NCBI GenBank assembly: GCA_005790505.1
Contig: SXUP01000016.1
Location: forward strand, 1-64,000
Direction: 5' to 3'
Length of the DNA stretch: 64,000 nucleotides
Source: Actinomycetota bacterium
Lineage (GTDB): Bacteria; Actinomycetota; Acidimicrobiia; Acidimicrobiales; Ilumatobacteraceae
Both the position numbers and the translations under genes were made by a program. The notes under the pieces were generated by a model, which did not search any database, was not told the origin of the DNA, and was given only the letters and a program-made list of their open reading frames with translations. This document shows, one piece after another, positions 52,059 through 57,030 of the stretch (position 1 is the first letter of the stretch; every line of letters starts with the position of its first letter).

Positions 52059-52604
52059 ATGAAGAAAATAATTGGAAGTGTTTTTGCAGGGCTACTGTTG
52101 CTGAGTGCTTGTGGAAGTGACGCAAGTGACTCCGCGACACCAGCTGTCGACACAACTGCTGCTGGTTACGCAGATGAGGCCAAAGACATTGTGGCTGTCG
52201 CGAGTGAGAATGAAGACTTCAGCACACTTGTTGCTGCTGTCACCGCAGGTGGTTTAGTTGAGACTTTGCAAGGTGAGGGTCCGTTCACGGTATTCGCACC
52301 GACCAATGCTGCATTTGCTGCGCTACCTGAAGGTCTGCTCGACAAGTTGCTTCTCCCAGAAAATAAGACAACCCTCGCGGCGATCTTGACCTATCATGTG
52401 GTCGCTGGAAAAGTGATGGCCGCCGATGTTGCAGCAGGAGATGTTGCAACTGTTGAAGGTTCAAACATCGCCCTTGGCACCACAGACGGTGTACAAGTCA
52501 ACGACGCGACAGTGACATCGGCTGATATCGCAGCAAGCAACGGAGTCATTCACGTTATTGACAAGGTTCTAGTTCCACCAACTGTGGACCTGTCGTCTCT
52601 CTAA
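52059..52604 (+). CDS. Fasciclin (FAS1) domain lipoprotein
   Basis: The 181-residue protein has a lipoprotein signal peptide with lipobox LLSACGSD (Cys near 18), a Ser/Asp/Thr-rich spacer and one FAS1 domain: DFSTLVAAVTAGGLVETLQGEGPFTVFAPTNAAFAALP, LTYHVVAGKV, and NGVIHVIDKVLVPP. FAS1 domains mediate adhesion or bind ligands at the cell surface. The gene is monocistronic, closed by a strong terminator. Confidence 0.94.
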   Translation: MKKIIGSVFAGLLLLSACGSDASDSATPAVDTTAAGYADEAKDIVAVASENEDFSTLVAAVTAGGLVETLQGEGPFTVFAPTNAAFAALPEGLLDKLLLPENKTTLAAILTYHVVAGKVMAADVAAGDVATVEGSNIALGTTDGVQVNDATVTSADIAASNGVIHVIDKVLVPPTVDLSSL

Positions 52605-52675: not shown

Positions 52676-53503
52676 GTGCGGAGAATTTTTTCCACAATTT
52701 TTGGTTGCTTGAGCATCATCTGTCTGTGCTTTTGGATAATTTCGATGGTGCTGATCGGATTTGTCTCTTCTTCGCAGTCTGCAAGGTCATCTGTAAAATC
52801 GGCGCTCTCGAACACCGCTGTGCGCGACGCAATCGCAGATGAATTTGTCATAAAACTCGAAGAAGGCGATGGCGACGTTGGGTCGGAGTTTATATATTCA
52901 GTAGCGAGACCCCTAATCGTCAACGCTGTTTCTGATGTCTTGGGTGTGCCAGCCGTGAAAGACTTCGCTGGTGATGTTGCCGTAAAAATGTATGCGGTAT
53001 ACGTTGAAGACGCCCCTGCGACCAAGATTGATATTTCCTATCTCACAGAAACCGCTCTGGGAGCGATTCGGCTTGTTGACATCTCGGTTTCCAAAGATGA
53101 TGATCCACAACTAGACCCAATTAATGCCGAAAAAAAACAGGATGACCCCGACATCAAGTCGATTCGGGATTTGGCTCAATCAGGTGTCTGGCTTTTCTTG
53201 ATTCTTGGATTACTACTGCAGATAGCAGCGTGGTTTTTGAGTAAGGCAGGACTCTGGAAGAAGTTGCAGTATCTCGGAATGCGGCTCGCCATTGGTGGGG
53301 TCATCTTGTATGTTGCACTCACTGTTGCAAAGTCAAGGATTCCTCAGTCAATGTCTGACAACGAGGCTGCCGCAAAGGCAATTACAGATCTTGTAACAAG
53401 TCCGATGCTGACGCGATTCTTGATCATGACAATCGTGGGCGTTGTCGCTGGTGTCGCAGGTTTTGTTCTGCACGGCAAAAACGCTTCAACAGTTAAGTCT
53501 TGA
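52676..53503 (+). CDS. Four-helix membrane protein of unknown function
   Basis: The 275-residue protein has four predicted membrane segments: about 8-30 (FGCLSIICLCFWIISMVLIGFV), 170-190 (WLFLILGLLLQIAAWFL), 203-222 and 243-265. A soluble domain of about 130 residues lies between the first two and is probably extracytoplasmic. It resembles in outline small actinobacterial membrane proteins with an N-terminal anchor and a loop of SARSSVKSALSNTAVRDAIADEFV type, but I do not recognise a named family. The end overlaps the convergent HPP gene by 11 bases. Confidence 0.75.
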   Translation: MRRIFSTIFGCLSIICLCFWIISMVLIGFVSSSQSARSSVKSALSNTAVRDAIADEFVIKLEEGDGDVGSEFIYSVARPLIVNAVSDVLGVPAVKDFAGDVAVKMYAVYVEDAPATKIDISYLTETALGAIRLVDISVSKDDDPQLDPINAEKKQDDPDIKSIRDLAQSGVWLFLILGLLLQIAAWFLSKAGLWKKLQYLGMRLAIGGVILYVALTVAKSRIPQSMSDNEAAAKAITDLVTSPMLTRFLIMTIVGVVAGVAGFVLHGKNASTVKS

Positions 53504-53996
53504 CGGGATAACGACGCCAGGCAAAAGGTGCATTAATAGCGACCGCAAGTACCACGAGCAAGACTGCATTAAGTAGCACCGGTCGCCAGATGAATTCAAA
53601 TCCAAGATCAGTAACTGCTTCGCCGCCAATCACGGCAGTCAGTGCCGTACCGCCACTGGGCGGGTGCATGTATCCGAGGCGGACCATCGCCCCTGTGTGC
53701 AGACCAACAGCAATAGCGATGGCAAGGGGAAGATTGTTGAAAATTTGGGCAGAGGCAACTCCCAAAAACGCTCCGACAACGTGAGCAAGAACCATAGGTA
53801 CTGGTTGTGCCGCAGGAGCCGTGGGCATTGTGAAAAGTATGACGGCTGAAGCGCCCATTGACACCACAAGCAACGGCGCAGTACCTCCGAGGATCGCGTC
53901 GGACACCAGCCACGTAATCGCAATTCCAAGGGCAGCGCCTATCGCGCTGATGGAAGCGTCTTTGTTGTTGCTTCTCGGGGATGGCAAAAGATTCAT
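53493..53996 (-). CDS. HPP family membrane protein
   Basis: The 167-residue protein has four membrane segments and the motif that names the family, in YMHPPSGGTALTAVIGG. Early Ala/Gly-rich helices (SAIGAALGIAITWLVSDAILGG) and a final helix (LLNAVLLVVLAVAINAPFAWRRYP) match. Some HPP proteins are reported to move nitrite in plastids and cyanobacteria; that role is not shown here. It follows the GNAT-AAA+ gene by nine bases on the same strand and is probably co-transcribed with it. Confidence 0.88.
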   Translation of the reverse strand: MNLLPSPRSNNKDASISAIGAALGIAITWLVSDAILGGTAPLLVVSMGASAVILFTMPTAPAAQPVPMVLAHVVGAFLGVASAQIFNNLPLAIAIAVGLHTGAMVRLGYMHPPSGGTALTAVIGGEAVTDLGFEFIWRPVLLNAVLLVVLAVAINAPFAWRRYPVKT

Positions 53997-54005
53997 ATTT
54001 GTCTT

Positions 54006-55271
54006 TTAGGTGCGACCGAAGCGCTTGGACTCATCGGTGAATTGTTTGGCAATCTCAGTCGTGATTGAAGCGTTTGTTCCAGCAATTGACTTTGATAAGT
54101 CTTGTCGTGTGACGTGACTTGGCTCAAAGCCGTTGCGGGCGCGATCAAATGCGATGCTGGCTGCACGTTGTGAAGCGAGTTCGATGTCTCCTGGAGTGAA
54201 ACCTTCTGTGGTCTTCACCAACTCATCAATATCAATGTCCCGAGAATCTAGACGACTGAGCATGCTCGTCCACAACGCATTGCGGGCCACTTTATCCGGA
54301 GGACCAATTGGAATAACGAGGTCAAATCGGCCTGGTCGCAAAACAGCGGGATCAATGTTATTGACAAAGTTTGTGGCGCAGACAAGCAAATGACCAGCTG
54401 GCGTTCGGAACGACGGAATCATTTTGAGCAGTTCATTTACCACGCCGCGCGTGCCGGGACTCTCTGAACGAGCCGTCGCAATCTCATCTACTTCATCGAT
54501 GAATACGACGATGTTTTCAAGTTTGAGTAATTCGGTGAGGGCGTTGCGGAGTTCGGCTGCAAGAGACAATTGACCACTGTCTAATTTCGATGGAAGCAAT
54601 TCAACAAAAGGCCAGCCCAGTCGCCCGGCAATGGCGCGGGCAAAAGTTGTCTTGCCTGTTCCGGGAGGGCCAAACAACATGACTGCCGATGGCGCGTTTA
54701 CACCAATCTTGCCGGCCAACTCTGGGTCAGCAAGAGGTGCAATTATGCGGTTTTCGATCAAAGTTTTTTCGGTATCCATACCTGCAACTCGATCCCACAA
54801 TGTTGCATCGCAAAGTTCTCCACCCCACTGGTCAAGAACCCGCATTGCAGAAGGCTCAATGGGTTCAGATTTTTCGTAGAGCACAAGACCGTGAATGGGA
54901 TGAAAGCCCCGATTGACGAGAGCAGTTTGTCCCGCTTCAAAATTGGTTAGTAGCGCTGAGATCTTGCGTACTCCTTCGTGCAACAATTTTTCTTCAAGAC
55001 GCTGCAACATTGCAGAGCCAATTCCTTGATGCCGCCAACTGGGGCTAATTGCAACAATATTTATCCAGGCGTCATCATTGCTGATTCGACTGGACACCAG
55101 GCCAACTACTTCGTTTTCGGCAACAGCGACAATTGCAGGCGAACCAGCACTCGTATCGGCAACAAACTTCGCAATGTCAACTGGCCTTGAATCGGCGACA
55201 CCACGACACAATTCAAGAAGACGCACTGCCGAAGACATGTCACCAGGCACTAAATCGCGAACATTGAACAT
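54006..55271 (-). CDS. GNAT acetyltransferase - AAA+ ATPase fusion protein
   Basis: The 421-residue protein joins two domains in one frame. Residues 1-135 are a GNAT acetyltransferase with the acetyl-CoA loop VAISPSWRHQGIGSAML and FEAGQTALVNRGFHPI. Residues about 155-400 are an AAA+ ATPase of the classic AAA type: Walker A GPPGTGKTT (201-209), Walker B VVFIDE (255-260), sensor-1 Asn301, and arginines 312/315 in VLRPGRFDLVIP, then a small helical lid (EGFTPGDIELASQRAAS). No protease or membrane anchor is present. AAA domains of this type remodel proteins; the GNAT part might acetylate the target. Confidence 0.92.
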   Translation of the reverse strand: MFNVRDLVPGDMSSAVRLLELCRGVADSRPVDIAKFVADTSAGSPAIVAVAENEVVGLVSSRISNDDAWINIVAISPSWRHQGIGSAMLQRLEEKLLHEGVRKISALLTNFEAGQTALVNRGFHPIHGLVLYEKSEPIEPSAMRVLDQWGGELCDATLWDRVAGMDTEKTLIENRIIAPLADPELAGKIGVNAPSAVMLFGPPGTGKTTFARAIAGRLGWPFVELLPSKLDSGQLSLAAELRNALTELLKLENIVVFIDEVDEIATARSESPGTRGVVNELLKMIPSFRTPAGHLLVCATNFVNNIDPAVLRPGRFDLVIPIGPPDKVARNALWTSMLSRLDSRDIDIDELVKTTEGFTPGDIELASQRAASIAFDRARNGFEPSHVTRQDLSKSIAGTNASITTEIAKQFTDESKRFGRT

Positions 55272-55349: not shown

Positions 55350-56018
55350 CTAACTAGTAAAGGCTTCAACTGGCAGATCGCGCTCACCTGCAATTATGGC
55401 GGTGACAATACGGGCAGCCACCGCATCGGGTGCCAGACCGACTGGCATCTTTGGCGCGACTCCGGCAACAGGACGCGTAGCCAGCCCAGTTTCGGTGTGT
55501 GGGGGTCGGGCATCAATCACGTCAATGCGGCGGCGACGCAGTTCACGTCCGACAGCTAACATCGCAGCCCAAGCAGCGGCTTTTGATGCGCTGTATGCGG
55601 CCATTCCGCTGACAGGTTGTGTGGCAACGACACCGGAGAGGTTGACAAAAAACCCTCCATCATTTATGTGCGATGAACTTTCGCGCAACATCACGATCGG
55701 TGCGATTGCATTCACGGCAAACAATCGAGCAATCGTTGCGTCATCTAAATCAGCAATCGCGCCAAAGGCAACCAGCCCCGTTGCGTTGATCACACCGTCA
55801 AACGGCGCGACAGACTCAAATGCAGTCCTCAAAGCTTCATGATCAGTGATATCTGCTAAGGCGTATTGAAAAACAGTAGCGCCATCTAGTCGTGTGTGGT
55901 CACGCACGATCGCTGAAACGCGTGCACCAGCAGTTGTGAGATGGGCGGCAAGACGAGCACCCAAAACACCAGTCGCTCCAACTACAACAATATGCTTTCC
56001 ACTTATCTCTCGTGTCAC
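55350..56018 (-). CDS. Short-chain dehydrogenase/reductase
   Basis: The 222-residue SDR has the cofactor loop HIVVVGATGVLGARLAAHL, GVINATGLVAFG in place of NNAG, the catalytic VNLSGVVATQPVSGMAAYSASKAAAW (Tyr-x-x-x-Lys) and a shortened C-terminus. It is slightly shorter than the usual 245-255. GTG start with GAAGGGA upstream. No operon partner is evident; the substrate is unknown. Confidence 0.87.
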   Translation of the reverse strand: MTREISGKHIVVVGATGVLGARLAAHLTTAGARVSAIVRDHTRLDGATVFQYALADITDHEALRTAFESVAPFDGVINATGLVAFGAIADLDDATIARLFAVNAIAPIVMLRESSSHINDGGFFVNLSGVVATQPVSGMAAYSASKAAAWAAMLAVGRELRRRRIDVIDARPPHTETGLATRPVAGVAPKMPVGLAPDAVAARIVTAIIAGERDLPVEAFTS

Positions 56019-56547: not shown

Positions 56548-57030
56548 TTATTTACCATCGCGTAAATCGATGTACAAAGTTTTTCGATTCTCAACGATGG
56601 GTCGCACATCGGTGGGTAGGGCGAGTTGCTCAGGAGTCAAAGTTCGGTTGTTGCAGTCAGTGAAGTTTCGAGTGTTGGGAGTATGCGTCACCAAACATGT
56701 CGCATCTGAATCTGCTGGGTGTCCGTAATACACCTGCCATCCCCGCGTGGGGTCAGCGCCAGTGTGGTCGAGCACAATTGAGCGCGTACCGTTGGGGCTT
56801 TTGAGGTCAGGGAACAAAAGTGGCCCGCCCGTGTCGACAGCACGAGCAATTGACTCAACAGGACCTACTTCAAAGATTCGGGCGCCCAGATTGGTCATAT
56901 TTGCGGGGCGATTTGAGATGTAGCTAGCCATACCCCACGTTGCCAACATCAGTAGGGCAAAAAAGGCAATTCCCAGCCCAACAGGAACAACAGCACGAGC
57001 AAAAGGGGAGCGAAGTTTTGGAAGTGGCAC
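56548..57030 (-). CDS. Single-pass membrane protein of unknown function
   Basis: The 160-residue protein has one membrane segment near its N-terminus (about 13-37, VVPVGLGIAFFALLMLATWGMASYI) followed by a polar domain, probably outside the membrane. That domain has two Cys (CLVTHTPNTRNFTDC) which could pair, and ends LPTDVRPIVENRKTLYIDLRDGK. I do not recognise it. The GTG start has CACAAT six bases upstream, close to the leaderless pattern. It is divergent from the B12-binding gene. Confidence 0.7.
   Translation of the reverse strand: MPLPKLRSPFARAVVPVGLGIAFFALLMLATWGMASYISNRPANMTNLGARIFEVGPVESIARAVDTGGPLLFPDLKSPNGTRSIVLDHTGADPTRGWQVYYGHPADSDATCLVTHTPNTRNFTDCNNRTLTPEQLALPTDVRPIVENRKTLYIDLRDGK

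Follow-up and report, generated by a model that had tools for sequence, protein, structure and literature searches.

The GNAT-AAA proteins form a real family that is patchily distributed in Actinomycetota. They are not a chance fusion, since the full-length two-domain protein recurs in many genomes and plasmids and the distances of its GNAT and AAA halves are correlated. The member described here is encoded in the window, by which we mean the whole 64,000-nucleotide stretch of Ilumatobacteraceae DNA that was analysed. Its gene occupies positions 54006-55271 on the (-) strand, as do all parts of the protein given below, and consists of a single ATG-started frame of 421 aa with no internal stop. 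The gene has full-length relatives elsewhere, and the GNAT-then-AAA architecture of its product is near certain.

The GNAT domain spans residues 1-135 (54867-55271), with the Acetyltransf_1 core at residues 43-108 (Pfam E 7e-12, 46 bits against a cut-off of 20.7), and contains the acetyl-CoA pyrophosphate loop RHQGIG at residues 80-85 (55017-55034), of the R/Q-x-x-G-x-G/A type. The AAA core follows at residues 197-322 (54306-54683; Pfam AAA, E 1e-27), with Cdc48/VAT as its best solved relatives, and the AAA lid at residues 345-386 (54114-54239; Pfam AAA_lid_3, E 1e-7). Within the ATPase lie Walker A, GPPGTGKT, at residues 201-208 (54648-54671), the Walker B region at residues 254-260 (54492-54512), of which VVFIDE forms residues 255-260, and a stretch running from the sensor-1 residue N301 to the Arg fingers R312 and R315 (NFVNNIDPAVLRPGR; 54327-54371). 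The original prediction had read this frame as a GNAT domain joined to a full AAA ATPase. Both Pfam domains were indeed found in the uninterrupted 421-aa frame, the N-terminal region matched a GNAT profile, and the loop, Walker, sensor-1 and Arg finger residues had all been assigned correctly.

Predicted structure agreed with Pfam on the GNAT fold. The AlphaFold2 model of residues 1-144 (pLDDT 81, pTM 0.78) showed the order of strands and helices found in GNAT, and its Foldseek matches, among the matches listed, were GNAT enzymes led by phosphinothricin acetyltransferase (PAT) and RimI. The full-length AlphaFold2 model, built from a shallow alignment, had its best PDB matches in the AAA modules of FIGL-1, p97 and katanin. 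It is only moderately confident (pLDDT 73, pTM 0.53), and how it places the two domains relative to each other is therefore uninformative.

Spread of the family

At least 77 distinct relatives with identical domain order and similar length were recovered, and the family alignment comprises 77 distinct members. Most are 420-450 aa long, reaching 470 aa in some Frankia; the window protein, as one polypeptide with GNAT before AAA, falls in the overall range of about 420-470 aa. At E <= 1e-40, a relative is carried by 28 of 397 sampled Actinomycetota genomes (about 7%) and, within the window's own family, by 29 of 151. At E <= 1e-60, 12 of 247 genomes in the class and 14 of 299 in another order had a match. 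Among the named genomes that were scanned, freshwater acIV/Ilumatobacteraceae bins had 86-95% identity to the window protein and Frankia/Protofrankia relatives 43-47%. Open reading frames in the loci of high-GC relatives were called by codon-position scoring. Two relatives were irregular. One genome holds a second copy (L137, 659-1468; G070:C16) in which the AAA half is open, at 63% identity, while the GNAT half lies outside that open frame and an IMP dehydrogenase-like gene adjoins. The gene of another relative (L122, G746) is interrupted in frame by a TGA, which makes it either a pseudogene or the result of a sequencing error.

Beyond Actinomycetota, the search covered plasmid, phage and viral collections as well as one genome scan with peptides of the window protein, which would miss distant members. 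In 23 plasmid records the match spanned at least 80% of the window protein, at identities below 60%; near-complete matches, among the matches listed, came from plasmids of Rhodococcus, Kitasatospora, Embleya, Saccharopolyspora, Streptomyces, Arthrobacter, Paenarthrobacter and Tsukamurella. A protein of an archaeal (Natrinema) plasmid aligned over 80% of the query and has a AAA domain but no Pfam GNAT match, and on this evidence it is not a member. No full-length copy was found in 50,697 phage records, and there were at least 8 matches in viral contigs, all of them partial among the matches listed and located in or around the AAA part. An origin in phages or viruses was rejected on these grounds.

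Several members already bear the RefSeq name 'bifunctional GNAT family N-acetyltransferase/ATP-binding protein', which is an automatic annotation. No experimental study of a GNAT-AAA fusion was found in open-access papers. Thus, the earlier remark that no characterised protein has this pairing stands as far as the open-access literature goes, although the pairing itself had been named. Both halves are well-known folds; what they form together has a database name but, as far as we found, no experiment.

The ATPase half and the acetyl-CoA loop

Residues K207, T/S208, D259, E260, N301, R312, R315 and D317 are invariant in all 77 aligned members. Walker A, Walker B, the sensor-1 Asn and the Arg fingers of the SRH are thus present throughout, and by its motifs the AAA half is assigned to the classic clade (Cdc48/FIGL/katanin-like) of AAA ATPases. 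By sequence, the closest solved relatives of the family profile were VAT and Cdc48. Five further residues, W220, N279, E280, K283 and C298, are likewise invariant (77/77) and look like family signatures. Arg fingers work across subunits in ring AAA proteins. The pore-loop-1 position, residues 230-239 (LDSGQLSLAA; 54555-54584), was located by alignment to the pore loop of an archaeal VCP-like ATPase (KYYGQSE / KWVGESE) and is without the usual aromatic residue, which is absent in 76 of the 77 members and present in one. The family thus differs in this position from threading unfoldases such as Cdc48 D2, PAN and FtsH. Some threading AAA rings, such as Cdc48 D1, carry non-aromatic pore residues too, so the missing aromatic is suggestive only.

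The GNAT half is more variable. Among 30 representatives, the AAA core had the highest mean pairwise identity (61%), followed by the linker (41%), the C-terminal part (37%) and GNAT (34%). The distance matrices of GNAT and AAA were correlated (r = 0.77; none of 1000 permutations was as high), and both halves have therefore travelled together. Of the 77 members, 66 have an intact acetyl-CoA loop (R/QxxGxG/A) and 11 a degenerate one, so that the presence of acetyl-CoA-binding residues in homologs, on which the original prediction depended, holds for the larger part of the family but not for all of it. On the tree of linker, AAA and lid, the state of the loop changes about three times. In one well-supported clade the loop is lost throughout while every ATPase residue is kept. 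Pfam GNAT scores of the loop-degenerate members are above the cut-off in several and just below it in others, and from these scores the GNAT fold seems to persist there.

Genomic surroundings

A TM_HPP membrane protein is encoded at 53493-53996 (-) (Pfam E 8e-41), nine bases downstream of the fusion gene, exactly where the original prediction had placed it. An SDR oxidoreductase gene lies upstream on the same strand at 55350-56018 (-) (Pfam adh_short, E 1e-23) and is not conserved as a neighbour. The Pfam scan of neighbours in the window gave HPP, SDR, fasciclin and amidohydrolase, and three genes without a match above the cut-off. The fasciclin-domain frame (52059-52604), with a lipoprotein-like N-terminus, is ordinary; another frame of 160 aa (56548-57030), to which Pfam gave no match, carries a single hydrophobic segment at its N-terminus. 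When 76 genes flanking about 28 loci were scanned with Pfam, no family was present in more than three. In the nearest relative (L036, 2592-5860 and the next 3357 bases; also G025:C16, L139), SDR, GNAT-AAA and HPP genes occur in this order twice in tandem, with a 3357-base period and 16 mismatches in about 3.27 kb, which is either a recent duplication or an assembly artefact. On the Rhodococcus plasmid pDK2 (L115, 9984-11842) Hsp20 genes precede the fusion gene, and a Dyp-type peroxidase gene and an encapsulin shell gene come after it, in a single instance.

The original prediction had further suggested HPP as a membrane partner. It is very improbable that the fusion and the HPP protein are a two-gene working unit. 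Within the clade of close freshwater relatives at >= 86% identity, HPP does lie directly downstream in at least 10 different contigs, even though the upstream gene varies, but it is missing beside one relative of that same clade (L092/L045) and beside all relatives at <= 65% identity. Usually the GNAT-AAA gene stands alone, without an HPP neighbour, and the survey of adjacency among relatives rejects HPP as a family-wide partner. Nitrite transport has been reported for cyanobacterial and chloroplast HPP proteins (Maeda et al. 2014, cited in PMC10605003), and nothing in our analysis ties it to the fusion.

Two loci pointed to the maturation of hydrogenase. In one genome (G430) the fusion gene comes after hypC-hypD and a DUF6390 gene, 5 bases from the latter, and a Kitasatospora plasmid copy is convergent with hypE at a distance of 16 bases. 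A chaperone for maturation of hydrogenase or another metal enzyme would also suit the copies near formate dehydrogenase-like genes (G393) and after a proton-antiporter-type operon (G348). However, such adjacency was limited to one carrier among 28, no HypD match was found in the window's own genome, and HypD occurred in 18/28 carriers as against 185/369 non-carriers, which is not significant over the 397 genomes (Fisher p = 0.17). The association with hyp genes that this reading calls for was not borne out in these genomes, and we consider the reading very improbable. That the protein is an IetA-type ATPase of anti-phage defence is hardly probable either. The AAA half matches IetA profiles with 110 bits, and the patchy presence and plasmid carriage of the family would fit defence, but the match extends no further than the generic AAA core, and other classic AAA families match at least as well. 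An IetAS system would also have the protease IetS adjacent; no protease partner adjoins in the window, no neighbours recur, and the phage records mentioned above hold no full-length copy.

Possible mode of action and comparison with known systems

In classic AAA proteins such as VAT/Cdc48, FIGL-1, katanin and p97, the N-domain recruits the substrate. We tentatively favour, at less than even confidence, a reading in which the GNAT domain is the partner-recognising N-domain of an ATP-driven AAA ring, often with acetyl-CoA, and the ring remodels or switches its partner. The subunits of this classic-clade ATPase would form a ring driven by ATP; the N-terminal GNAT domain would recognise a partner protein or ligand, in many members with acetyl-CoA bound; and ATP hydrolysis would remodel or switch the partner without threading it through the pore. 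We infer ring formation, partner recognition by GNAT and non-threading remodelling alike, and favour recognition by GNAT because the motor half is invariant, the GNAT half is variable and the N-domains of classic AAA proteins pick the partner. The near-constant domain order and length in 77 distinct members speak for it, and the ring reading draws support, by analogy, from ring remodellers (VAT/Cdc48, FIGL-1, katanin and p97) being the best relatives in sequence or fold.

The chief rival reading takes the protein for a genuine acetyltransferase, acting on a protein lysine or N-terminus or on a small molecule, with an ATP-driven helper: the AAA ring would expose the acceptor site or gate the reaction by ATP. 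We regard this as possible, if on the unlikely side. That 66/77 members keep the loop speaks for real catalysis, rather than recognition only, in the greater part of the family. Moreover, the GNAT half is modelled confidently and its best folds, among the matches listed, are catalytic N-acetyltransferases (phosphinothricin acetyltransferase and RimI). The rival takes the loop-less clade as a secondary loss, and about three changes on the tree are consistent with derived loss. Against it, GNAT evolves faster than the AAA core, a whole clade loses the loop yet keeps every ATPase residue, and the Pfam scan of the 76 flanking genes gave no linked acceptor gene. The two readings differ in whether the in vivo role requires acetyl transfer. 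The coupling of acetylation to remodelling in the original prediction thus survives in part: a GNAT fold coupled to ATP-driven remodelling is still the leading reading, but the 11/77 members that have lost the loop, set against ATPase residues that never vary, weaken the case for acetylation as a family-wide activity.

Going further, the family might represent a class of ATP-driven machine, with a GNAT N-domain on a non-threading AAA ring and acetyl-CoA as signal or donor in most members, so that remodelling would be tied to the acetyl-CoA state of the cell, and with one clade having kept the machine and dropped acetyl-CoA binding; taken as a whole this is rather unlikely. Since the motor is invariant whether or not a member has the loop, the family offers a natural test of acetyl transfer versus mere recognition. 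Should acetyl-CoA binding gate the motor, protein remodelling would be linked directly to metabolic state in Actinomycetota, among them culturable strains of Frankia, Rhodococcus and Kitasatospora.

Comparison with the RefSeq bifunctional GNAT/ATP-binding proteins of Rhodococcus opacus B4 (WP_007297117.1) and Kitasatospora (WP_331742139.1) revealed shared domain order and length and about 45% full-length identity; there is no structural difference, and the window protein is a member of the same group. The family has its fold in common with phosphinothricin acetyltransferase, RimI and YpeA, and most members also share their RxxGxG acetyl-CoA loop, but it differs from these enzymes in the AAA motor fused on and in the 11/77 members with a degenerate loop. 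Fusions of the TmcA/NAT10 type likewise combine GNAT with a P-loop ATPase in a single chain, as in the window protein, but their ATPase module is of the helicase type and precedes the GNAT, and they act on RNA. With Cdc48/VAT/p97 and FIGL-1/katanin the window protein has the AAA core, Arg fingers and AAA lid in common. Cdc48/VAT, however, have two AAA modules and the usual N-domain, whereas the window protein has one AAA module with GNAT in the N-domain's place, and its family is set apart from Cdc48/VAT/p97 and FIGL-1/katanin by its own W220-P-F-x-E and N279-E-L-L-K motifs and by a pore loop without the aromatic residue.
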